Shown here: positions 39,129 to 50,722 of the stretch, in pieces
Position numbering within the stretch: the first letter of the stretch is position 1
How the letters are laid out: every line of letters starts with the position of its first letter
Assembly: GCA_947500135.1 (NCBI GenBank)
Contig: CANMQX010000008.1
Location: 62,001-126,000, forward strand
Reading direction: 5' to 3'
Source of the DNA: an uncultured Paracoccaceae bacterium
GTDB lineage: Bacteria > Pseudomonadota > Alphaproteobacteria > Rhodobacterales > Rhodobacteraceae
Length of the DNA stretch: 64,000 nt
The notes under the pieces: generated by a model
Told to the model about the DNA's origin: nothing
What the model saw: only the letters and a program-made list of their open reading frames with translations
Databases searched by the model: none
Program-made: the position numbers and the translations under genes

Positions 39129-40502
39129 TTACAACAGCCACATTGCAGCGAGGCCCAAAAAGGCAAAGAAACCAACAACATCCGTCACAGTCGTGACAAA
39201 AGCACCCGAGGCCAAGGCAGGATCGACCCCCATCTTTTCCAAAACCACGGGGATCACCGTACCGGCCAGTCCGGCCACGACCAGATTGATCACCATCGCC
39301 ACCGCGATCACAACGCCAAGCATCGGTGAGCCGAACCAGACGACGCCGACAATACCCATGACAACTGCAAAGATCAGACCGTTTATCAGGCCCACAAGCA
39401 CTTCGCGTTTGATGACCCGCCAGACGTTTGCGGTGGTCAAATCGCGGGTCGCCAAGGCGCGCACCGCCACGGTCAGCGACTGGGTGCCTGCATTGCCCCC
39501 CATTGAGGCAACGATCGGCATCAGCACGGCTAGCGCGACCAGCCCGGCAATCGTTTCTTCAAAAAGCGATATCACAAGTGACGCAAAAATCGCCGTCACC
39601 AGATTGACGGCCAACCATGGAAAGCGCCGCTTGGTGGTCTCGATCACCTTATCGGACAGACTGCCCTCGCCGACACCGGCAAGGCGCAGAATATCTTCCT
39701 CCGCCTCTTCTTCCAAAAACGCCATAGCGTCATCAATGGTAATCACACCGACAATCCGGTCGTCATCATCCACCACAGGGGCGGTGATCATGTGGTAGTG
39801 GTTGATCGCTTGGGCCACTTCCTCCACGTCCTGGGCGACATGGAATGTGCGGAACGTATCCTCGGTCAGGTCCTTTAGCAGCATATCGCGCGGATGGCTT
39901 AGTATCCGGCCAAGTGTCACATAACCCACCGCCTTCAAGCGCGGGTCAACCAGAATGATGTGGTAAAACTGATCCGGCAGCACCACATCGGAGCGCAGAT
40001 AGTCAATCGCCTCGCCCACATTCCAATGCTCTGGCGCGCGGACCAGTTCGGATTGCATGTGACGGCCGGCGGATTCTTCTGGATATGACAGCGCCTGTTC
40101 GACAACGACACGGTCGCCCGCATCCAGCGCATCCAGAACCGCCTCTTGCTGCTCATCGCCAAGGTATTCAACCAGATCGACAACATCGTCGCTTTCCAGA
40201 TCACGCACGGCCTCAGCCAGATCAGCGGGCGCAAGCTGTTCGATCACCTCTTCGCGCAGACCTTCATCCAACTCGGACAGAACATCGCCGTCCATCCCGC
40301 CTTGCCAGACCGCCAGCAAATCGCGCCGGTCGCGCGGATCGATCTGTTCCAGCAGGTGGGCCACGTCGGCGGGGTGCAGCGGCTCCAGCAAGGCTTCGAC
40401 CCAGTCGGTGCCGCCTTCACGAACGGCTTCCATCACATCATTGACCAACCGGTCCGTGATGCCGAATGCCTCGTCCTCGGTGTTTTCCTGCGGTTCCGCC
40501 AT
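39129..40502 (-). CDS. mgtE: Magnesium transporter MgtE
   Basis: 457 aa from the ATG at 40502 (MAEPQENTEDEAF), with GAGGGCAG upstream; longer in-frame starts would run into the divergent guanine deaminase promoter. Domain order: N-terminal superhelical Mg2+-sensing domain (about 35-135), two CBS domains (about 140-260; IITIDDAMAFLEEEAEED at the end), then five membrane helices with the pore segment MPIVASMGGNAGTQSL. It passes Mg2+ under control of its cytosolic domain. Confidence 0.95.
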   Translation of the reverse strand: MAEPQENTEDEAFGITDRLVNDVMEAVREGGTDWVEALLEPLHPADVAHLLEQIDPRDRRDLLAVWQGGMDGDVLSELDEGLREEVIEQLAPADLAEAVRDLESDDVVDLVEYLGDEQQEAVLDALDAGDRVVVEQALSYPEESAGRHMQSELVRAPEHWNVGEAIDYLRSDVVLPDQFYHIILVDPRLKAVGYVTLGRILSHPRDMLLKDLTEDTFRTFHVAQDVEEVAQAINHYHMITAPVVDDDDRIVGVITIDDAMAFLEEEAEEDILRLAGVGEGSLSDKVIETTKRRFPWLAVNLVTAIFASLVISLFEETIAGLVALAVLMPIVASMGGNAGTQSLTVAVRALATRDLTTANVWRVIKREVLVGLINGLIFAVVMGIVGVVWFGSPMLGVVIAVAMVINLVVAGLAGTVIPVVLEKMGVDPALASGAFVTTVTDVVGFFAFLGLAAMWLL

Positions 40503-40600
40503 GATCTGCCCTCGCTGGCCTGCAACATAATCGATCAGCGCTGTCTTACAACGCGCATTCGGCGATTTACGCTGTTGTTTCACGCGCATATGGTCGGCGC

Positions 40601-41896
40601 ATGACAAAGCAGCTTCTTCTTGGCCAAACCCTTGGTTTTTCCGGCAATCCCCTGATCGGGGACTGGGCCGATGCGGTGCAATTCGACAGTGCAGGCGGCG
40701 TATTGATCGAAGGTGATCGTATTACCGCTGTCGGGAATGGGCAGGCACTGAAAACCGACCATCCTGATGCCACGGTAACAGATTATGGTGCGCAGCTAAT
40801 CAGCGCGGGTTTTGTCGATGCCCACATGCATTATCCGCAAACCGGCATGATCGCGAGCTGGGGTAAACAGCTGATCGACTGGTTGAACACCTATACGTTT
40901 CCAGAAGAGGCCCGTTTCGGTGATCCGGCCTATGCGGCGGACGTGGCAAGTCGGACACTTGATCTGGCACTCGCTCACGGCACCACAACGCTGACCAGCT
41001 TTTGCACGATCCACCCAGAGAGCGTGGATGCGCTTTTTGCGGCGGCTAACGCGCGCAATATGGCGGTTGTGGCTGGCAAAACCTGCATGGATCGCAACGC
41101 GCCCGATGATCTGCGCGACACGGCACAGTCCGCCTATGATGACAGCAAGGCGCTGCTAGAAAAATGGCATGGCAAAGGGCGCGGACAATACGCCATTACA
41201 CCACGCTTTTCGCCGACCTCAACACCGGATCAACTGGCCGCGCTTGGTACGCTTTGGGGTGAACATCCGGGTTGCCTGATGCAAACACATCTCAGCGAGC
41301 AGCATCCTGAAATCGCCTGGGTCAAAACGCTTTTCCCGGATGCCCGCGATTATCTTGACACTTATGAAGCGTTCGGCCTGCTGGGTGAACGCGGGCTTTA
41401 TGGCCACGCCATTCATCTGGAAGACCGTGAAATCGCACGGTTGAAAGAGGTCGGTTCCGCAGTGGTGCATTGCCCGACATCCAACACGTTCATCGGCTCT
41501 GGACTGTTTGACATGATGGGGTTGGCAAAGGCCGGACTGCGCATCGGGTTGGCGACAGATACCGGCGGCGGATCATCCTTTTCGATGTTGCGCACCATGG
41601 CCGCAGCTTATGAGATTGGGCAATTGCGCGGCGCGGCGCTGCATCCCGCACAATTGATGTGGCTGGCCACAGAGGGATCGGCACAGGCGCTGCATATGCA
41701 GGGTCAGATTGGCCACCTAAACGCGGGGGCCATGGCCGATATCATTGTGCTGGACCTTGGATCAACCGCCACCATCGCACAGCGGTTTGAAAAGGCGCAT
41801 GACATCTGGGATGCCCTGTTTCCAACCATCATGATGGGTGATGACAGGGCGATTGCAGATGTTTGGATCGCGGGAAAGCTGGTTAGCAGGGCTTAG
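40601..41896 (+). CDS. guaD: Guanine deaminase
   Basis: 431 aa zinc amidohydrolase converting guanine to xanthine. Metal and substrate motifs: DAHMHYPQTG at about residue 73, TSFCTIHPES at about 137, QTHLSEQHPEI at about 226, HAIHLEDREI, CPTSNTFIGSGLF and GLATDTGGGSSF near residue 320. A second purine deaminase gene is 0.5 kb away. The last 14 bases overlap the convergent CAP-domain gene. Confidence 0.95.
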   Translation: MTKQLLLGQTLGFSGNPLIGDWADAVQFDSAGGVLIEGDRITAVGNGQALKTDHPDATVTDYGAQLISAGFVDAHMHYPQTGMIASWGKQLIDWLNTYTFPEEARFGDPAYAADVASRTLDLALAHGTTTLTSFCTIHPESVDALFAAANARNMAVVAGKTCMDRNAPDDLRDTAQSAYDDSKALLEKWHGKGRGQYAITPRFSPTSTPDQLAALGTLWGEHPGCLMQTHLSEQHPEIAWVKTLFPDARDYLDTYEAFGLLGERGLYGHAIHLEDREIARLKEVGSAVVHCPTSNTFIGSGLFDMMGLAKAGLRIGLATDTGGGSSFSMLRTMAAAYEIGQLRGAALHPAQLMWLATEGSAQALHMQGQIGHLNAGAMADIIVLDLGSTATIAQRFEKAHDIWDALFPTIMMGDDRAIADVWIAGKLVSRA

Positions 41897-42344
41897 CCAT
41901 CAACAGAACCCAGTTGCCGCCCGCTTCGCCCAGCCCGTATTCGGTATAATTTGCCCCGAGCATATTTTTAAGATGCAGTGGCGAACCCTGCCAGGCGGCG
42001 AATGCGGCGGACCGGTTCGGCAATGCAGATCCCAGATTTTCAGCCCAGCCACAGGCGCTATAGCCAGTCTGTGCGATCCGGCGATCCGCGCGGCTGCCAT
42101 CCGGCGCGCGGTGTGCAAAGTAGCCACGCTCCGACATGTCGCGGGCGTGGGCCGTTGCAGCCTGCGCCAATTGGGGATTTGGCACGACCAGCCCCAGACC
42201 GTTGGACTGGCGCAACCCGTTCAGTTGGGTTGTGAACGCATCCGTTGGCACAACGCGCGGCGCTGTATTCGCCGGTGCGGTCGCTTGTGGCGCGCTGCAC
42301 GCCATCAACATTGCCGCGAATACCGTCATCAAAATTCTGGACAT
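41883..42344 (-). CDS. CAP-domain (SCP/PR1) lipoprotein
   Basis: 153 aa from the ATG at 42344 (MSRILMTVFAAML). A lipobox-like MLMAC at about residues 12-16 suggests lipid attachment. The mature domain shows LNGLRQSNGLGLVVPNPQL, AHARDMSERGYFAH and a final YTEYGLGEAGGNWVLLM, as in bacterial CAP proteins. Likely anchored in the envelope; activity unknown. It overlaps the guaD end. Confidence 0.87.
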   Translation of the reverse strand: MSRILMTVFAAMLMACSAPQATAPANTAPRVVPTDAFTTQLNGLRQSNGLGLVVPNPQLAQAATAHARDMSERGYFAHRAPDGSRADRRIAQTGYSACGWAENLGSALPNRSAAFAAWQGSPLHLKNMLGANYTEYGLGEAGGNWVLLMAKPC

Positions 42345-42385
42345 GTCCACTCCACTTTGTTCAGGACAAGCCTAACCCAGCGCGA

Positions 42386-43723
42386 TCAGTCAGCCAAGCG
42401 GCGGGCCAAGGTGTTTTGTCGTTCGATCACGCGCGGCAGATCAATGGTCTGCATGTGGCCATCCGCCACAACCTGACGGCCTTCGACAAACAGGTCGCGC
42501 ACCTTCATCGGCCCAGCTAAAACCAGTGCCGCTGGATCCCAGGACCCCGCCGCCTCAACCGATTGCGCATCCCAAATCGCGATATCGGCGCGTTTGCCAA
42601 CAGCAATCTGGCCACAATCATCACGACCCAGAACCTGCGCACCGCCACGGGTTGCGATCTCCAATACCTCGCGTGCAGACATTGCATCGGCGCCATTTCG
42701 GACCCGTTGCAGCAGCATCGCTTGGCGCGCTTCCGCCATGATGTTCCCCACATCATTGCTGGCCGATCCGTCCACACCCAGCCCAACAGGCACGCCCGCA
42801 TCGCGCATCTGACGCACCGGCGCGATACCAGATCCAAGCCTGCAATTGGAACAAGGGCAATGGGCCACGCCAGTCCGGGTGCGGGCGAACAAATCAATCT
42901 CTTGCCCATCCAGTTTTACACAATGGGCATGCCAGACATCATCGCCGACCCACCCCAGATCTTCGGCATATTGGCCAGGACGACAACCGAACTGTTCCAG
43001 TGAATAGGCGATATCCTCGTCATTTTCGGCCAAATGGGTATGCAACATCACACCCTTGTCACGGGCCAACAGGGCGGCGTCGCGCATCAGGTCACGGGTG
43101 ACCGAAAACGGGCTGCAAGGGGCCACACCGACGCGGACCATGGCACCCGGACTGGGATCGTGAAACGCATCAATGACCCGGATGCAGTCCTCCAGAATGG
43201 CATTTTCGTCCTCAACCAGCGCATCGGGTGGCAGGCCGCCCGCACTTTCGCCAATGCTCATCGCGCCGCGTGTAGGGTGAAAGCGCAGACCGACCTCGGC
43301 CGCAGCGGCAATAGTATCATCCAGCCGGGCACCATTGGGATAGAGGTACAGGTGATCAGATGTCAGTGTGCAGCCCGACAACGCCAGTTCGACCAAACCC
43401 ACCTGGGCCGACACAAACATCTCTTCCGGGCCAAAGCGGGACCAGATTGGATAAAGCGTCTGTAACCAGCCAAATAACAGCGCGTCCTGTGCGGCAGGCA
43501 CGGCCCGGGTCAATGTCTGGTAGAGATGATGGTGCGTATTCACCAATCCGGGGGTGACGACAGTACCCGCCGCATCAAACACCGCACTGCCATCCACCGG
43601 CAGCCCCTGCCCAACATCGGCAATCACACCATCTGCGATCCTGATATCGGCATTTGCCAATTCGCGGCGGCTGTCATCCATCGTCAGAACGACAGCGGCG
43701 TTTTTGATAAGCAGATCAGCCAT
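42386..43723 (-). CDS. 8-oxoguanine deaminase
   Basis: 445 aa amidohydrolase; converts 8-oxoguanine to urate in this subgroup. Motifs: NTHHHLYQTLTRAVPAAQ at about residue 62, LHTHLAENDEDIAYS at about 230, HCPCSNCRLGSG and GLGVDGSASND near 310. The start is ATG 43723 (MADLLIKNA); an ATG three codons earlier exists. The gene start overlaps the hisN stop region, so they are coupled. With guaD it forms a purine-deaminating pair. Confidence 0.9.
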   Translation of the reverse strand: MADLLIKNAAVVLTMDDSRRELANADIRIADGVIADVGQGLPVDGSAVFDAAGTVVTPGLVNTHHHLYQTLTRAVPAAQDALLFGWLQTLYPIWSRFGPEEMFVSAQVGLVELALSGCTLTSDHLYLYPNGARLDDTIAAAAEVGLRFHPTRGAMSIGESAGGLPPDALVEDENAILEDCIRVIDAFHDPSPGAMVRVGVAPCSPFSVTRDLMRDAALLARDKGVMLHTHLAENDEDIAYSLEQFGCRPGQYAEDLGWVGDDVWHAHCVKLDGQEIDLFARTRTGVAHCPCSNCRLGSGIAPVRQMRDAGVPVGLGVDGSASNDVGNIMAEARQAMLLQRVRNGADAMSAREVLEIATRGGAQVLGRDDCGQIAVGKRADIAIWDAQSVEAAGSWDPAALVLAGPMKVRDLFVEGRQVVADGHMQTIDLPRVIERQNTLARRLAD

Positions 43724-44525
43724 CAACCACATCTTTCAAAACGGACAAGGCCGCGGCGTGAATTGCGGGGTTCGCGGCTGCAAGGGCCCGACCACCTTGA
43801 TGGGCGGGGCCGCCTGCCCAATCCGTCACGATGCCACCTGCCGCCGTCACCACGGCAATCGGCGCCTGAATATCGTAAGGGTTCAACCCCGCCTCAATCA
43901 CCAAATCCACCTGCCCGGCTGCCAGCAAGGCGTAACCGTAACAATCCATGCCATAGCGGGTCAGAAGTGTCTGACCGGCGACAGCCTGAAACGCACGCAT
44001 CTCTAACTCTGTCCCCACTTCGGGAAATGTCGTCAGCACGGTGGCCGCTGCCAGACCGGTGACAGCGCTGGTGGTCAGGGCCTGCTGGCCGCGCGGCCCG
44101 GTGATCTGGGCCAGGTCGAACCCACCGATAAACCGTTCACCGATATAGGGCTGGTCAATGATGCCGAACAAAGGGCCAGTGGCATCAGCCACCGAAATCA
44201 GAACCCCCCAAGTCGGGGTGCCGCTGATATAGCCGCGTGTGCCATCAATCGGGTCCAGCACCCAGGTAAACTCAGTGGTGCCCTGATAATGGCCAAACTC
44301 TTCGCCCAGAATACTGTCATCAGGGCGTTCATTGGCCAACACAGCACGCATCGCGCGCTCTGCCGCGCGGTCAGCTTCGGTGACGGGGTCAAAACCGTCA
44401 TCCAGTTTATTATCGGTGGAAAGGGCAGGCTGGCGAAACAGGCGAAGTGTTTCAGGACGGGCTGCATCTGCAAGCAAATGCGCAACACGGATCAGATCCG
44501 TTTTCGTCGTGGTATCGAGTGGCAT
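43716..44525 (-). CDS. hisN: Histidinol-phosphatase of the inositol monophosphatase family
   Basis: 269 aa. Metal-binding motifs are GEEFG at about residue 76 and DPIDGTRGYISGTPTWGVLI at about residue 92, the latter diagnostic for HisN-type enzymes rather than SuhB. It removes phosphate from L-histidinol phosphate in histidine synthesis. It is not next to other his genes. Its end overlaps the 8-oxoguanine deaminase start. Confidence 0.9.
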   Translation of the reverse strand: MPLDTTTKTDLIRVAHLLADAARPETLRLFRQPALSTDNKLDDGFDPVTEADRAAERAMRAVLANERPDDSILGEEFGHYQGTTEFTWVLDPIDGTRGYISGTPTWGVLISVADATGPLFGIIDQPYIGERFIGGFDLAQITGPRGQQALTTSAVTGLAAATVLTTFPEVGTELEMRAFQAVAGQTLLTRYGMDCYGYALLAAGQVDLVIEAGLNPYDIQAPIAVVTAAGGIVTDWAGGPAHQGGRALAAANPAIHAAALSVLKDVVDG

Positions 44526-44594
44526 GATCGATCCTTATCTGCCCTGCGCTTACCTCGGCGGTAGCGCGGGGCAGATAAAGGGTCAAGCCCGCGA

Positions 44595-44966
44595 TCAGGC
44601 CGCTTCGCTTAGAACGCGGGCAAGATCGAACAGACGACGACGCTGGTTTTCAGGGATCGCGTAATAAGAGCGCAGCAGCTCCAACGCTTCCTTGTCGGTC
44701 AGGATATCACCCGGCATATCACTATTGGCGCCGTCAGCCGGAGGTTGAGTATCAAGCCCCTCGAAAAAGAATGACACAGGTACGTTCAGCACTTTCGCAA
44801 TATCCCAGAGCCGCGATGCGCTGACCCGGTTCATGCCCGTTTCATATTTCTGGATTTGCTGAAACTTGATCCCTACCTTCTCAGCAAGCTGTTGCTGGGT
44901 CGTCCCGCTCATCCAGCGGCGGTGCCTAATTCGCTTGCCTACATGTACATCTACAGGATGTTTCAT
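44595..44966 (-). CDS. XRE-family transcriptional regulator
   Basis: 123 aa. The helix-turn-helix occupies residues about 11-65 (RIRHRRWMSGTTQQQLAEKVG, then IQKYETGMNRVSASRLWDIA). The C-terminal part DKEALELLRSYYAIPENQRRRLFDL with its few variable residues is shared by a widespread alphaproteobacterial group including PhrR/PraR of rhizobia. Target genes are unknown; the 277-base upstream region contains an 11-bp palindrome that it might bind itself. Confidence 0.88.
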   Translation of the reverse strand: MKHPVDVHVGKRIRHRRWMSGTTQQQLAEKVGIKFQQIQKYETGMNRVSASRLWDIAKVLNVPVSFFFEGLDTQPPADGANSDMPGDILTDKEALELLRSYYAIPENQRRRLFDLARVLSEAA

Positions 44967-45243
44967 TTGTTCGTTTCCTTAGTTTGAAAGAACACGGCAT
45001 GTGTGTCGCCAGTGCCCGATACAGCGTTTCGCGCGTTCCCCAACCCATCAACGCGTTTAGAATGATGATGTGCATGACACCAATCACTCGTAACACGCAA
45101 CGGTTGCAGTAACAGACCTGACCTTAAAGACAGGTTCATGATGACACTTTTTGTCCAAGCGGTCAAAGCCGCTGTCCTTTCATACCGACCCATGTTTTGT
45201 TGATAAGGGTTAATAAAGTCATACCAAGGAGGATTCGTTTCGT
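44967..45243. promoter_or_regulatory. Divergent upstream region of XRE gene and quinone reductase
   Basis: 277 bases with no supportable gene. GCAAC-G-GTTGC (45097-45107) is a perfect palindrome midway and is a candidate operator. AAGGAGG stands just before the quinone reductase start. Promoters of both divergent genes should be here. Confidence 0.45.
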
Positions 45244-46203
45244 ATGCGCGCATTTCTAGTGTCATCGTTTGATAACGCCCCAACCGTCGAGAATGTTCCC
45301 GCTCCGATTGCAAAAAATGATGAGGTTCTCCTCGACATTGCAGCATGCGGCCTGAACTTCGCAGATTTGCTTATGGCAAAGGGCACTTATCAGGACACAC
45401 CGGTGCCGCCCTTCACCCTCGGGATGGAGGTTTGCGGGACCGTCACGGCACTTGGGCCAAACGTAACGACGCCTGCGATTGGGACCCGTGTCGCGGTGTT
45501 CGGGGGCAATGGCGGATTGGCCGAACAAGGTGTGTTCCCGGCGGCGTTATGCCGCCCGGTGCCCGATGACATGCCCTCTGACGTGGCGGCGGGCTTTATG
45601 GTGGCTTACGGGACGTCGCATCTGGTGCTGACACGACGCGCGCAATTGCAAAAAGGCGAAACACTTCTTGTGCTGGGCGCAGCTGGTGGCGTTGGACTGA
45701 CCGCCGTTGAAATTGGCAAGGCAATGGGGGCGACCGTGATCGCCGTCGCGCGCGGCGCTGATAAACTGGCCGTGGCCAAAAACGCCGGGGCCGATCATCT
45801 GATCGACAGTACAACAGACGACATCACCGAGGCCGTCAAGGCCCTGGGCGGGGCCGATGTTGTTTATGATCCGGTCGGCGGTGATGCATTCAAGGCTGCA
45901 TTACGGGCCTGCAACCGCGAGGCGCGTGTCATTGTCATCGGATTTGCCAGCGGCGACGTGCCGGCAATCCCGGCCAATATCATTCTGGTCAAGAACATCA
46001 CAGTGATCGGTTTCTATTGGGGCGGCTACCTGCGCTTTAACCCCACCGCGCTGGCCGACAGTCTGGATGAGTTGATGGCATGGTATGCACAGGGCCGTCT
46101 ACGCCCGCATATCAGCCATGTCATGCCGTTAGACGATGCAGCCAAGGCATTGGAACTCATGCGAAATCGTACCTCGACAGGCAAGGTTGTTGTCACGCCA
46201 TAA
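45244..46203 (+). CDS. NADPH:quinone oxidoreductase-like, zinc-free MDR family
   Basis: 319 aa. The catalytic domain has GLNFADLLMAKGTYQ and GMEVCGTVTALGPNV; the Rossmann domain has VLGAAGGVGLTAVEIGKAMG at about residue 142. The zinc-ligand cysteines of alcohol dehydrogenases are absent. It reduces quinones or enones with NADPH. An AAGGAGG site supports the start. The last 11 bases overlap the convergent LysR gene. Confidence 0.92.
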   Translation: MRAFLVSSFDNAPTVENVPAPIAKNDEVLLDIAACGLNFADLLMAKGTYQDTPVPPFTLGMEVCGTVTALGPNVTTPAIGTRVAVFGGNGGLAEQGVFPAALCRPVPDDMPSDVAAGFMVAYGTSHLVLTRRAQLQKGETLLVLGAAGGVGLTAVEIGKAMGATVIAVARGADKLAVAKNAGADHLIDSTTDDITEAVKALGGADVVYDPVGGDAFKAALRACNREARVIVIGFASGDVPAIPANIILVKNITVIGFYWGGYLRFNPTALADSLDELMAWYAQGRLRPHISHVMPLDDAAKALELMRNRTSTGKVVVTP

Positions 46204-47062
46204 TCGGCGTCCGCAAGGTGTGAAACCCGTCGCGCAAGAACTCCGCCAGATCAGGTAAGATTGGGCCATCCTGCACCGTCGCACTATACATATTGATATT
46301 CACATCGATCAGATCAGGCAGGCTGCCACCGTGATGGATGCACTCAAAATGGCGCGGTTCTGTGCCTTCCAGCATCGTATGCACGGCCAAATCCGCGCTC
46401 ACTGTCGCCTCGACAGTGCGGGTTGAATTGCTTTCGACAGCCATATCCCAGGGAATACCAACCTCATCCAGACGACGCTGCACATATTGGCGAAAGATGC
46501 ACCGGCCCTCATAAGCCAGCCGCAAGGGGCGCTGTTTCCAGGCCTGACCACCGGGCGCGCCCATCCAGACAAGCGGCAATTTCGCCAGCGTCTCGCCCCC
46601 CAAACCGACGCTATCTTCGGTCGTCAGGATCACGTCAATCTCGCCACGGTTGAATTGCTCTTTCAGTTTTCGTGTATAAGAGGAAACCAACTGTACCCGG
46701 ACACGCGGATAGGCCGCAGCAAAGCGCTGTAAAACCTTCGGGATAACCGGGTAGATCACGTCATGCGGCACGCCTAGCGTCACCTCACCTTCAAACTCTA
46801 CCGCTGTTAGTTTGCCATAAATCTCGTCATTCAGCGCAAGCATCCGCCGGGCATAGCTCAGCAGCTGTTCGCCCTGTGGTGTCAGGCCAATGGCGCGGGC
46901 AGATCGATCCAGCAGCGACACATTCAACGACTCTTCCAGCCGTTTCAGCTGCATCGATACCGCGGACTGTGTCAAGTTCAGCAACCCGGCCGCCTTGGTT
47001 ACCCCGCCAGTATCTGACACAGCCACAAACGACCGCAACGCTGTCATATCAAGATTTCTCAT
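46193..47062 (-). CDS. LysR-family regulator
   Basis: 289 aa. The winged helix includes TKAAGLLNLTQSAVSMQLKR at about residues 20-39 and an effector-binding domain follows from about residue 90. It is divergent from a DUF1127 gene with a 116-base shared region that contains the palindrome CATTCGAATG; LysR genes beside DUF1127 genes are common in roseobacters. The inducer is unknown. Confidence 0.92.
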   Translation of the reverse strand: MRNLDMTALRSFVAVSDTGGVTKAAGLLNLTQSAVSMQLKRLEESLNVSLLDRSARAIGLTPQGEQLLSYARRMLALNDEIYGKLTAVEFEGEVTLGVPHDVIYPVIPKVLQRFAAAYPRVRVQLVSSYTRKLKEQFNRGEIDVILTTEDSVGLGGETLAKLPLVWMGAPGGQAWKQRPLRLAYEGRCIFRQYVQRRLDEVGIPWDMAVESNSTRTVEATVSADLAVHTMLEGTEPRHFECIHHGGSLPDLIDVNINMYSATVQDGPILPDLAEFLRDGFHTLRTPIMA

Positions 47063-47135
47063 TCATCAACATCCTTGATGCATATACTATCAAATATTCG
47101 TTTTTATCATGCCAGATGCCACGATACATATCAAG

Positions 47136-47145
47136 CATTCGAATG
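47136..47145. promoter_or_regulatory. Palindrome between LysR and DUF1127 genes
   Basis: CATTCGAATG is a perfect 10-bp palindrome 33 bases before the DUF1127 start. LysR regulators usually bind dyads in such divergent regions; assignment is inference. Confidence 0.4.
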
Positions 47146-47178
47146 AAATAGCTTCACTTGATCACGAAAGGACATGAC

Positions 47179-47400
47179 ATGAGCATATTTACACTCCATA
47201 AATCGACTGGTCTTTGCACCAAACCGGCGCGGCGTGGATGGCTTCTTGCGGTGGCAGACATGCTTGCGGTTGCGCGGCAGCGGCGCCATTTGTCCCGGTT
47301 GGACACGCATCAGCTTCGGGATATCGGGCTCAGCGAACATCAAGCACGGACAGAAGCAGAAAAACCAATCTGGGATACGCCGTCATATTGGCAGCGATAA
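47179..47400 (+). CDS. DUF1127 (YjiS-like) small protein
   Basis: 73 aa from the ATG at 47179 (MSIFTLHKSTG), preceded by AAAGGACATGAC. The C-terminal half has the family pattern HLSRLDTHQLRDIGLSEHQA followed by IWDTPSYW. Such Arg-rich small proteins bind RNA or partner proteins and influence phosphate, carbon or RNA metabolism in rhizobia; the role here is unknown. Probably controlled by the adjacent LysR. Confidence 0.9.
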   Translation: MSIFTLHKSTGLCTKPARRGWLLAVADMLAVARQRRHLSRLDTHQLRDIGLSEHQARTEAEKPIWDTPSYWQR

Positions 47401-47463
47401 CCCCTTTATTTCCTTTGGCCTGCGACATTCCCGCCCGAAATAATCAGATTTAACGAAATCGCC

Positions 47464-47506
47464 CCGACGGAGCCTTGAAAAAAGGGCTCTGTCGGCCAAT
47501 ATTGGC
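47464..47506 (+). repeat. Hairpin plus palindrome in Bax-inhibitor leader
   Basis: An 11-bp stem (CCGACGGAGCC with GGCTCTGTCGG) at 47464-47495 is followed without a T run by the perfect 12-bp palindrome GCCAATATTGGC (47495-47506), which begins on the last base of the stem. The first may end the DUF1127 transcript; the second could be an operator. Confidence 0.55.
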
Positions 47507-47553
47507 AACAAGGATGCCGTTTTGCGGCGCAACTGGTTATTCTGGAGGTCTAA

Positions 47554-48327
47554 ATGGCTCAATACGAGACAATGAAATCAACGGTTGGCGGTGTTCGGAC
47601 CGCCGCCATCGACGAAGGGCTACGCGCCCACATGAACAAGGTCTACGGCACCATGTCTGTTGGCATGCTGATCACAGCTGCTGCGGCTTGGGCGATTTCA
47701 GGTCTGGCATTGTCCAGTGATCCGACACCTTATCAGATCGGTGCATCGACTTATCTGACCGATCTGGGGGTAACACTCTACACCACGCCTCTGAAATGGG
47801 TCGTGATGTTCCTGCCACTCGCCATGGTGTTCATGTTCGGCGCAATGATCAACCGACTCTCAGCCGCTGGTGCGCAGACGTTCTTTTACGTCTTTGCCGC
47901 CGCGATGGGTGTGTCGATCAGCTGGATCTTCGCGGTCTTCACCGGATTTTCGATCATCCAGATTTTCCTAATCACGGCAATCGCCTTCGCCAGCCTGTCG
48001 CTCTGGGGATACACCACAAAGAAAGACATCTCTGGTTGGGGGTCGTTCCTGATCATGGGTGTGGTTGGTTTGTTGGTGGCAATGATCGTCAACATCTTCC
48101 TGCAATCGCCTGCCATCATGTTCGCGATCTCTGCAATTGGTGTGCTGATTTTCGCAGGTCTCACAGCCTACGACACGCAAAAGATCAAAAACGACTACCT
48201 CGCACATGCCGCAAGCGGCGACAGCGAATGGTTGGCTAAGTCTGCGATCATGGGTGCGTTGAACCTGTATCTGGACTTCATCAACATGTTCATGTTCCTG
48301 CTGCAACTCTTCGGCAGCCGCGAATAA
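47554..48327 (+). CDS. Bax inhibitor-1/YccA family membrane protein
   Basis: 257 aa with about seven membrane helices. Family signs are the N-terminal HMNKVYGTMSVGMLITAAAAW, with its variable positions, and the C-terminal GALNLYLDFINMFMFLLQLFG. Bacterial members (YccA, YbhL) act as pH-dependent ion leak channels or FtsH modulators. TCTGGAGGTC precedes the start. A strong terminator follows. Confidence 0.93.
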   Translation: MAQYETMKSTVGGVRTAAIDEGLRAHMNKVYGTMSVGMLITAAAAWAISGLALSSDPTPYQIGASTYLTDLGVTLYTTPLKWVVMFLPLAMVFMFGAMINRLSAAGAQTFFYVFAAAMGVSISWIFAVFTGFSIIQIFLITAIAFASLSLWGYTTKKDISGWGSFLIMGVVGLLVAMIVNIFLQSPAIMFAISAIGVLIFAGLTAYDTQKIKNDYLAHAASGDSEWLAKSAIMGALNLYLDFINMFMFLLQLFGSRE

Positions 48328-48353
48328 ACCTCGCCTCCGGCGGGTACCGATTG

Positions 48354-48387
48354 GCCCGGTCAAGCGTAACGCTTGGCCGGGCTTTTT
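48354..48387 (+). terminator. Terminator after Bax-inhibitor gene
   Basis: GCCCGGTCAAGCG pairs with CGCTTGGCCGGGC (one wobble) around TAA, followed by five T. It ends 60 bases after the stop codon. Confidence 0.95.
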
Positions 48388-48563
48388 CGTTCCAAATCAC
48401 GATATTCCGCCGACAAGTTGTCCATACGCTGTCCGCTGGCGTTCAGGTGACATTTCAGAATGTACGATCAATCATCAAAGGCAGCAGCATGGCTACAAAC
48501 TTCGGGATATGCAAAATCGGCCGACTCATTACGCGGTCAGCACCCGGCAATCATATGACCGGA

Positions 48564-49349
48564 CTAAACGGTCACGCCTCTTGCTGCATAAAGAGCAACA
48601 GCAGCGGCGTTGGACACATTCAACGATCCAAAGCCACCCGCAGCATCAATACGTACCAATCCATCACAGGTGGCGAGCGTTTTTTCGCGCAGGCCCGGCC
48701 CCTCGGCCCCCATGACCAGAGCAACGGCATGATCACGACGACCAGAAAGCGCCTCGTCAATCGTCTGATCAGCCGTGCCATCCAGCCCCAACACCAAGTA
48801 ACCCATGCCTTGTAGTGCGACCATCGTATCAGCCAGGTTACGGACACGCAGATAGGGCTGACGCTCCAATGCGCCGCTGGCTGTCTTTGCCAATGCACCG
48901 GTCTCGGGTGCTGCGTGACGCTGCACGGCGATCACTGCGCGGGCGCCAAACACCTCTGCTGATCGCAGGATCGCACCAACGTTATGTGGATCAGTGACGC
49001 GGTCCAACAGCACAAGTCGAGGCGGCATTGGCCCGTCACCAATGGCCACATCCTCAAGCGATCCCCAGTTTAATGGCTTGACCTCAAGAGCGGCCCCTTG
49101 GTGCACCGATTGCGGATCCAAGGGCGCCGCAAATCTACGCGGGTCCGAGATTTCAGGTTCCACACCGCCTATAGCGACGGCATCTCCTAGACGCTCGAGC
49201 GCGTTGCGGGTCACCACAAGGCGCAGCTTTATACGGGCCGGGTTTTCCAGCGCATCGCGGACAGCATGCAAACCAAAAAGCCAGACCGTTTCGCTGGCTG
49301 CGACACGTTTTGCCTGTTCCTTGGCAATAACCCATTTCGGCTTTTTCAT
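48564..49349 (-). CDS. rlmB: 23S rRNA (guanosine-2'-O)-methyltransferase, RlmB-like
   Basis: 261 aa SpoU-family enzyme that methylates a 23S rRNA guanosine with SAM. The ATG at 49349 (MKKPKWVIAKEQ) is the start; the frame stays open upstream but there it is antisense to tRNA-Tyr. An N-terminal substrate-binding domain begins ETVWLFGLHAVRDAL. The knotted catalytic domain shows LDRVTDPHNVGAILRSAEVFG, ALVMGAEGPGL and a final SLNVSNAAAVALY. Confidence 0.93.
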   Translation of the reverse strand: MKKPKWVIAKEQAKRVAASETVWLFGLHAVRDALENPARIKLRLVVTRNALERLGDAVAIGGVEPEISDPRRFAAPLDPQSVHQGAALEVKPLNWGSLEDVAIGDGPMPPRLVLLDRVTDPHNVGAILRSAEVFGARAVIAVQRHAAPETGALAKTASGALERQPYLRVRNLADTMVALQGMGYLVLGLDGTADQTIDEALSGRRDHAVALVMGAEGPGLREKTLATCDGLVRIDAAGGFGSLNVSNAAAVALYAARGVTV

Positions 49350-49474
49350 ATGACTACCCAATGCGACACTCTGCCCGAGGCGATACCGCACATCCCGCGC
49401 ACTGTGAAGAGGATGCGAAACGATCATATTTGTTGTTGACGGGCCAATGAGCGGGGGGTAATCAGCCCGACAGT

Positions 49475-49558
49475 GGGCGACAGGCCGCAAGGTGTGGCAG
49501 GGGACTGTAACTCCCTCGCGGAGACGCACGCCTGGTTCGATTCCAGGGTCGCCCACCA
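49475..49558 (+). tRNA. tRNA-Tyr (GTA)
   Basis: A full cloverleaf can be drawn: acceptor GGGCGAC/GTCGCCC, D stem GCC/GGC, anticodon loop CTGTAAC with GTA, a long variable arm typical of bacterial tRNA-Tyr, T arm CCTGG-TTCGATT-CCAGG, discriminator A and encoded CCA. An integrase remnant follows 94 bases downstream. Confidence 0.97.
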
Positions 49559-49651
49559 TTACACTCAACATGCTGTTTTTTATGGCCCTGAGGTGCTAAC
49601 ATGTACCCCAGATAGGCCATATTCGATGCAAACGGGCATAATTTCGATACA

Positions 49652-50158
49652 ATGAGTGACCAAGAGAGGGTCCTCTACCTGAAAATCGACCGTGGTAGAT
49701 ACTTCTACCAGCGTCGCGTTTCACAGCAGATCCAGGCTCATCTCGGTATCCGCAGGTGGCAATTGCCATGTGGCAATGTCAGCACTCCAAAGCCGTTCAG
49801 ATGGTGGTGACTTGGGCCTAGGAATGACGAACTTATTGCCAAGCTGCGGGAGGCTGGCGTGTCTGCCGTCCGCGCAACCAAGGCGAAACGTGCCGTCGAA
49901 CCTAATCCATTTGATATTCCCCGTTTCTACGAGATGACAGAGCAGCTTGACGGAGAAAAACAGCACTTCCCAAAACGTGCTATTCCTCGTTCTTGGCAGG
50001 CTGCTGCGAAGATGTTGCAAGATGCAAAAGCGGCTTTTATGCGGGTCAGCCCGATCAGGAAACTAACATACAAACAATCAACTTCTGGATTGAGGAAACG
50101 AGGCGTGGTGATCCGCCAACTAGAATACAAGAAGTTCACACGTACTCACCGGTGGTAG
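49652..50158 (+). pseudogene. Decayed tyrosine-recombinase (integrase) gene
   Basis: The first 50 codons read like the start of phage-type integrases (YLKIDRGRYFYQRRV, then IQAHLGIRRWQLPCG). At about 49784 the frame shifts; the lost frame continues SKAVQMVVTWA, and near 49822 the first frame resumes as NDELIAKLREAGVSA. A stop (TGA at 49808) and later divergence break the gene, and no catalytic domain with the R..HxxR..Y residues is present. Position right behind a tRNA fits an integrative element that has been lost. Confidence 0.65.
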
Positions 50159-50301
50159 GTCGCATTAAGACTTTGGACCCTAAGCTTGTTCGGAAAGCAA
50201 AGATCAGACTGATTGATTTGCTCCCTCTGTCTGTCGTCAGGGTTTTTGGGACCAATGGTGGCCTGAAGTAAGATAGCGTTTGGCTCATCTTGTTGGTTTG
50301 A

Positions 50302-50538
50302 TTATGCGGCGTGCTGCCGGTGATGCAAGCGTCGCGCTTCGAGTCTCTTGCGTTTAATCCTTTCGCGTTGTTTTAGAATGGCTTTGTCGCGGCCGAAGTA
50401 GACGTCGGCACGAATGTTGGTGCAGAGCTTCCACGAGACGATGTAGCGGCTGTAATCGTCCAGGACCGTACTGAGATAGAATCAGCCCCAGCCCAGCACC
50501 TTGATGTAGGTGAAGTCTGTCGTCCAGCTCAACTTTTC
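50302..50538 (-). pseudogene. IS3-type transposase remnant with internal deletion
   Basis: On the minus strand the frame reads KLSWTTDFTYIKVLGWG, a stop, then FYLSTVLDDYSRYIVSWKLC and directly RADVYFGRDKAILKQRERIK to the natural C-terminus RQHAA. These are the first two aspartates of the IS3-family DDE domain and the conserved tail; about 100 residues with the catalytic Glu are missing. A TGA replaces a conserved Trp. The sequence near 50281 may be the right end of the former element. Non-functional. Confidence 0.8.
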
Positions 50539-50636
50539 TTTATTTTGACAACAAGTATGAGTGGCATCGAACGCTCGGCCAAGCGTCAAGGTTACAACGC
50601 AGTTCAGGTTTAAGACATTGAATATGAAAACTTAAT

Positions 50637-50722
50637 TGGTGCGGGCGGTGGGACTCGAACCCACACGGGCATACGCCCCTCAGATTTTAAGTCTGGTATG
50701 TCTACCATTCCATCACGCCCGC
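50637..50722 (-). tRNA. tRNA-Leu (TAA)
   Basis: Acceptor GCGGGCG/CGCCCGC, anticodon loop CTTAAAA giving anticodon TAA, a long variable arm (GGGCGTATGCCC region), T loop TTCGAGT and encoded CCA. It is the class II type expected for leucine. Confidence 0.96.

Follow-up and report, generated by a model that had tools for sequence, protein, structure and literature searches.

Genomic islands are already known in which the integrase family keeps to a single chromosomal site, and the dusA-associated islands are a close parallel to the elements reported here (Farrugia et al, 2015; PMC4482086). There, an integrase family bound to a single site comes with diverse cargo. As in our elements, the integrase is the common feature and restriction–modification genes are among the cargo, whereas the target is the dusA protein gene and not tRNA-Tyr (PMC4482086); the likeness drawn here is one of description. 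Site-specific insertion into tRNA genes is also described for Rhodobacteraceae prophages (PMC8224337) and for Sinorhizobium islands, the latter likewise with tyrosine integrases (PMC11476347). The prophage study names nine tRNA isotypes as sites, and Tyr is not among them (PMC8224337). Among open-licence papers, judged by their titles and by term counts, we found no tRNA-Tyr integrase family in Rhodobacterales.

A second reference point is phage lambda, whose attP combines core sites with arm-type sites on both sides. Lambda integrase is the top structural match of the proteins described below, its core-binding domain can be aligned with theirs, and the repeats at both ends of their elements resemble arm sites. 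It is shorter (356 residues, versus mostly 480–564), and the tRNA-Tyr elements differ from it in having a pair of repeats 21 bp apart at each end.

Here, we analyzed a tRNA-Tyr locus of an uncultured Paracoccaceae bacterium within a contiguous stretch of 64,000 nucleotides (the window). The feature behind this tRNA is almost certainly the left end of an integrative element, a genomic island that inserted at the tRNA-Tyr 3′ end and has since decayed (Table 1).

Table 1. Features at and around the tRNA-Tyr locus, in window coordinates
Feature	Position	Strand	Basis
23S rRNA 2′-O-methyltransferase gene adjoining tRNA-Tyr	48564..49349	-	ORF and homologous DNA in relatives
tRNA-Tyr (GTA), target gene	49475..49558	+	ARAGORN
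Attachment core CGATTCCAGGGTCGCCCACCA, equal to the tRNA-Tyr 3′ end; left junction	49538..49558	+	21-mer at island ends in relatives
First putative arm-type repeat, diverged by one base	49622..49630	+	pair 21 bp apart
Second putative arm-type repeat, abutting the start codon	49643..49651	+	pair 21 bp apart
Integrase remnant, first piece: N-terminal, up to residue ~ 140 of 551, including the frame excursion and the TGA at 49808–49810	49652..50038	+	tblastn
Integrase remnant, second piece: in a different frame, up to residue ~ 203	50026..50227	+	tblastn; stops at IS remnant
IS3-type element remnant, IS end and transposase tail	50228..50409	-	89–91% identity to L012 and L011, the two closest copies
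Same IS remnant beyond an internal deletion, remaining IS missing	50405..50520	-	IS comparison
Stretch adjoining the rearrangement junction	50521..50636	.	no match wholly inside among the matches listed in the genus search
tRNA-Leu (TAA), 3′ end facing the integrase remnant	50637..50722	-	ARAGORN

The integrase remnant and its tRNA-Tyr-associated family

A sequence-only reading of the locus had recognized an integrase N-terminus close behind tRNA-Tyr, followed by a frame excursion and a stop and lacking a catalytic domain. All of this was borne out. Between the end of the tRNA and the ATG at 49652 lie 93 bases. When the intact integrase of G007, a 551-aa protein from another member of the genus, was compared with window positions 49475–50700 by tblastn, residues 2–140 matched at 53% identity (E 8e-43), and a second piece in a different frame reached residue 203 (E 2e-6). 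This similarity is far above what chance would give in such a comparison. At the DNA level, the remnant is 78% identical to G007 over its first 371 bases; in G007, an uninterrupted frame of 551 codons follows tRNA-Tyr. In the window, the ATG opens only 52 codons, which an in-frame TGA closes (ORF list). Aligned with the DNA of relatives, the remnant shows short indels, one of them of two bases. An ORF in the original frame runs from 49859 to a stop at 50156–50158, and the homology passes into another frame further on. The extent proposed earlier, 49475–50158, was correct in its coordinates and ends on that original-frame stop, but the homology continues to about 50227. Pfam searches of the remnant pieces, which had been suggested as a check, gave sub-threshold unrelated matches only; because Pfam alone fails to recognize the pieces, their identification rests on the intact relatives.

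In the G007 protein the catalytic domain (PF00589) occupies residues 372–531 (E 1.3e-5; 25.4 bits, just below the curated 27.1). The remnant ends at about residue 203 and therefore keeps only the N-terminal unit and linker. Tyrosine recombinases use the catalytic residues R..K..R..H..Y, and the corresponding R409, K432, R499, H522, and Y531 (G007 numbering) are invariant in the four intact relatives compared, as are their counterparts in 13 of 13 sequences. At the box that usually reads H-x-x-R in tyrosine recombinases, the family integrases read Y-S-x-R. Thirteen of the 14 proteins measured are 480–564 residues long. What the window retains is homologous to an intact member of the family and has no catalytic domain; like other members of the tRNA-Tyr-specific family, it starts just 3′ of tRNA-Tyr and is preceded by a pair of repeats 21 bp apart.

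To collect the family, we aligned four intact integrases and scanned 84,980 public genomes for their relatives; the scan relied on two peptide patterns of the catalytic half, and relatives without these patterns were missed. It returned 15 loci, all of which we take to belong to Rhodobacterales, with best-segment identities to the query of 38–100%. In 14 of the 15, ARAGORN placed tRNA-Tyr(GTA) just upstream of the integrase, and the exact 21-mer core was likewise present in 14; the exception (L151) is a partial match starting 200 bases from a contig end. As a control, we inspected the best 8 of 16 integrase-domain matches in the window's own genome: in flanks of at most 1.5 kb, none showed a tRNA-Tyr and one showed a tRNA-Leu. 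One of 50,697 phage records matched the integrase (21.9% identity over 47% of the query), as did four of 72,556 plasmid records; none of these matches reached 30% identity or covered half of the query, and neither set contained a full-length relative. The sequence comparisons thus support the earlier proposal that tRNA-Tyr is the insertion site, here as that of the whole integrase family.

We modeled the family from 13 sequences (alignment A2, which leaves out L151, cut at its contig end, and L155, whose match length is no multiple of three). The model is of moderate quality (mean pLDDT 72.7, pTM 0.44). Its predicted N-terminal unit consists of strands 14–17, 20–26, and 39–43 and helices 29–35 and 49–69, and is compatible with an arm-binding domain. 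The top Foldseek match, to lambda Int bound to DNA (E 2.1e-6), is a match of the whole model with the domains not separated. In profile alignments, the family matches the lambda core-binding domain at about residues 249–364 and the catalytic part of XerA at residues 382–514.

Within the genus, 51 of 56 genomes carry the 21-mer core at ≤ 1 mismatch. Integrase-family sequence lies within ~ 150 bases of it in ten of these 51: the window's genome (G000), G004, G007, G016, G022, G026, G070, G074, G077, and G078. This count was compared by hand, and G026 was seen in one of two integrase searches. In G076 a remnant lies 3.3 kb from the core. A full-length open integrase is present in four genomes, and in each a second core follows in the same orientation, 18,160 bp (G004), 13,068 bp (G007), 10,317 bp (G016), and 31,094 bp (G078) away; the second copy in G078 has one mismatch. 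The islands that the earlier reading proposed to look for at related tRNA-Tyr loci thus exist, as four elements of 10–31 kb between core copies. G011 has an empty site, in which the gene 140 bases past tRNA-Tyr is the one found beyond the second core in relatives (68–70% protein identity to G007, 81% to G004).

The site can also be occupied by more than one element. In G016 (L030), two family elements apparently stand in tandem at tRNA-Tyr: the full-length integrase is at the inner core, and the copy beside the tRNA is in two pieces, separated by an open frame that resembles a transposase by eye. In G078, a further remnant lies behind the inner core copy.

On the other side of tRNA-Tyr, homologous DNA of the methyltransferase gene, presumably of rlmB/trmH type, adjoins the tRNA in eight of eight loci compared; we set its start from the MKKPKWVIAKE of relatives. 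The segment from this gene through tRNA-Tyr (48578–49586) is 84% identical to G077, whereas its flanks are 94–95% identical, which suggests, at the level of sequence, that the segment was replaced by recombination or has a separate history.

Paired repeats at the island ends

The two 9-bp repeats between tRNA-Tyr and the remnant agree in 8 of 9 letters, and 100 shuffles of the window yielded no match to such a pair. A direct repeat of this kind (≥ 8 of 9 letters, spacing exactly 21 bp) was found between tRNA-Tyr and the integrase at 21 of 23 sites, which are related and not independent of one another; the two sites without a pair are the remnants in G026 and G078. Each of the other spacings between 12 and 40 gave such a repeat at 0 to 2 of the 23 sites. 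Only one of 22 other tRNA-Tyr sites had a repeat at spacing 21. These controls came from 30 loci (L079–L108), from which four with an integrase beside the tRNA had been removed and others dropped for want of the exact pattern or for a short flank.

The repeat itself varies by element and subgroup (TTCGATACA, TTAGACACA, CTGGACACA, TTTCGGTAC, TTTCTGTAC, GATATCGTA, TTGGACACA), and the members of a pair stay alike. The same pair recurs, in the same orientation, 111–113 bp before the second core in all four complete islands, with one changed base each in the right-end pairs of G007 and G016. G004 has four exact copies of its 9-mer within 18 kb, all of them in the two end pairs. The G074 contig with a second core also carries a right-end pair; this end (L128) apparently has three repeats in 21-bp steps, not two. 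A scan of the 56 genomes with one version of the pair hit eight places, seven of them at ends of tRNA-Tyr elements, including the window's, and one unrelated (G072). The reversed pattern hit one place.

Since a core with repeats on both sides resembles the sites of arm-type integrases such as that of lambda, we read the paired repeats as probable arm sites of the integrase. In an intact element, the tyrosine recombinase would recombine the 21-bp core identical to the tRNA-Tyr 3′ end, and a second copy of the core would mark the far end. Because the core equals the 3′ end of the gene, insertion would leave the tRNA intact. The N-terminal domain of the integrase may then bridge core and arm by binding the repeat pair at each end.

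The repeats could instead be operator sites for an autorepressor or an excisionase, and in several members the second repeat does abut, or nearly abut, the integrase start codon. The presence of the same pair at the right end of four of four islands, in front of the second core, speaks against this, and we consider a role as operators unlikely. We lean toward the view that the islands form an undescribed Rhodobacterales family, specific for tRNA-Tyr, whose ends carry element-specific pairs exactly 21 bp, or two helical turns, apart. The repeats drift between elements, yet the two of a pair match, and so do the two ends of each of the four complete islands (to one base); this would suggest co-evolution with the arm-binding domain of the integrase.

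Probable truncation in place, decay, and rearrangement

The complete islands have a second core at the far end. In the window's draft genome we found no second copy of the tRNA 3′ end at ≤ 1 mismatch, so the search for one, also suggested at the outset, gave nothing, and none further along in the window at ≤ 3 mismatches. The left repeat pair is single as well, with no right-end pair found in the genome at ≤ 1 mismatch. Because neither the right pair nor a second tRNA end was found in this draft genome, the element was probably truncated in place and not cleanly excised.

Site-specific excision with the remnant staying behind would fit the single core copy in the genome. Recombination between the cores would, however, have taken the integrase and both arm pairs with it, whereas the left pair and more than a third of the integrase remain, directly followed by a piece of an IS. 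We therefore regard departure by excision as highly improbable. The earlier formulation, that the element had decayed or left, holds in its first half; the second half falls, since excision would have removed the integrase, and both an IS remnant and a rearrangement adjoin what is left.

From 50228 onward, the DNA resembles insertion sequences carried by other members of the genus, with 79–91% identity over 143–190 bases. The transposase of one such copy (L012) passes the NCBIfam IS3 model with 191.7 bits (cut-off 160); its score against the IS481 model, 214.9 bits, is higher than the IS3 score but under that model's own cut-off of 224. The order of decay may have been insertion of the IS into the integrase, deletion within the IS, and loss of the remainder together with a rearrangement.

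The rearrangement was seen in comparison with G077, the close relative with 94–95% identical flanks. There, window positions 39522–49586 lie on one contig and 50637–60411 on another. Because the stretches behind tRNA-Tyr and behind tRNA-Leu in G077 have their counterparts on contig C6 of the window's genome, 1.45 kb from each other, the tRNA-Tyr/tRNA-Leu junction (49559–50636) is, as judged from these map positions, a rearrangement breakpoint in either the window's genome or G077. In G026, window positions 48327 and 50637 are neighbors, ~ 230 bp apart, and rlmB with tRNA-Tyr lies 82 kb away; the G026 sequence to the left of rlmB also maps to C6. At the reciprocal junction (C6:318700–320300), where we searched for the remainder of the element, we found neither an integrase nor an IS of this type.

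We also considered that the frame is a real small gene, encoding a short DNA-binding protein derived from the integrase N-terminus and retained for its own role. The frame is indeed open for its first 52 codons, from ATG to TGA, and the model predicts the N-terminal domain as a separate unit. Against this, homology runs beyond the stop in shifted frames, and G077 carries a different, shorter fragment. What would have spoken for such a gene, an unbroken copy of this short frame shared by many strains, did not turn up among the relatives compared: the G077 remnant after tRNA-Tyr is 88–91% identical over 34 residues to the subgroup with G016, L148, and L149, and the window's remnant comes closest to the Yoonia litorea/Lentibacter subgroup (80% over 44 residues). 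Because the two remnants belong to different subgroups, we infer that elements inserted and decayed at this site twice, independently, in close relatives.

The nearest DNA relative of the remnant among the four compared is that of Lentibacter sp. XHP0401 (L147; 79.3% identity over 667 bases), against which it shows three deletions (1, 2, and 18 bases) and one 2-base insertion. Over the first 44 codons, remnant and L147 differ by nine synonymous and nine nonsynonymous changes, versus 12 and 2 for the G074 copy and L147. These numbers are small but consistent with decay of the remnant, and they too speak against a selected small gene, an explanation to which we give hardly any credence. The remnant is, on these comparisons, a dead gene piece and no conserved small gene.

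That the integrase is intact and only appears broken through sequencing or assembly error has next to no chance of being right: short indels can arise in sequencing and the genome is a draft of 34 contigs, but the IS remnant and ~ 350 missing C-terminal residues go beyond single-base errors, the site lies inside a 159,599-base contig, and family searches of all 34 contigs found this one integrase piece only, with no catalytic part of this family in the remnant or elsewhere.

Cargo of the islands and significance

We scanned ten proteins of the G007 island, integrase included, with Pfam. For five, the matches point to roles in modifying, restricting, or cleaving DNA (NgoMIV-type endonuclease, C5 cytosine methylase, N6/N4 methylase, DndB-like protein, and HNH protein), and two had no match. 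In PADLOC, the endonuclease matched a type II restriction model; the cytosine methylase matched DruM models best and a type II methylase next. The DndB/DpdB-like protein (L029:11765–12763) is encoded in the same island as the NgoMIV-type endonuclease and the cytosine methylase. Ten chosen proteins downstream of tRNA-Tyr in G004, G016, and G026 were scanned as well, three without a match. Pfam identified a methylase and a caspase-like peptidase in G016, a DUF3644 and an IrrE-like protein in G004, and type I restriction subunits downstream of tRNA-Tyr in G026. By these domain matches, at least two tRNA-Tyr islands carry DNA-modification or restriction genes.

What had been a guess from the bare sequence is thereby settled, and a family of integrases that has repeatedly used tRNA-Tyr in marine Rhodobacterales has come to light. 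Its cargo includes, in one island, a type II restriction endonuclease beside a cytosine methylase. The repeat pair offers a simple pattern by which such islands and their exact ends may be found, and the matched, drifting pairs would provide a natural series for how the N-terminal domain of an integrase reads its arm sites.
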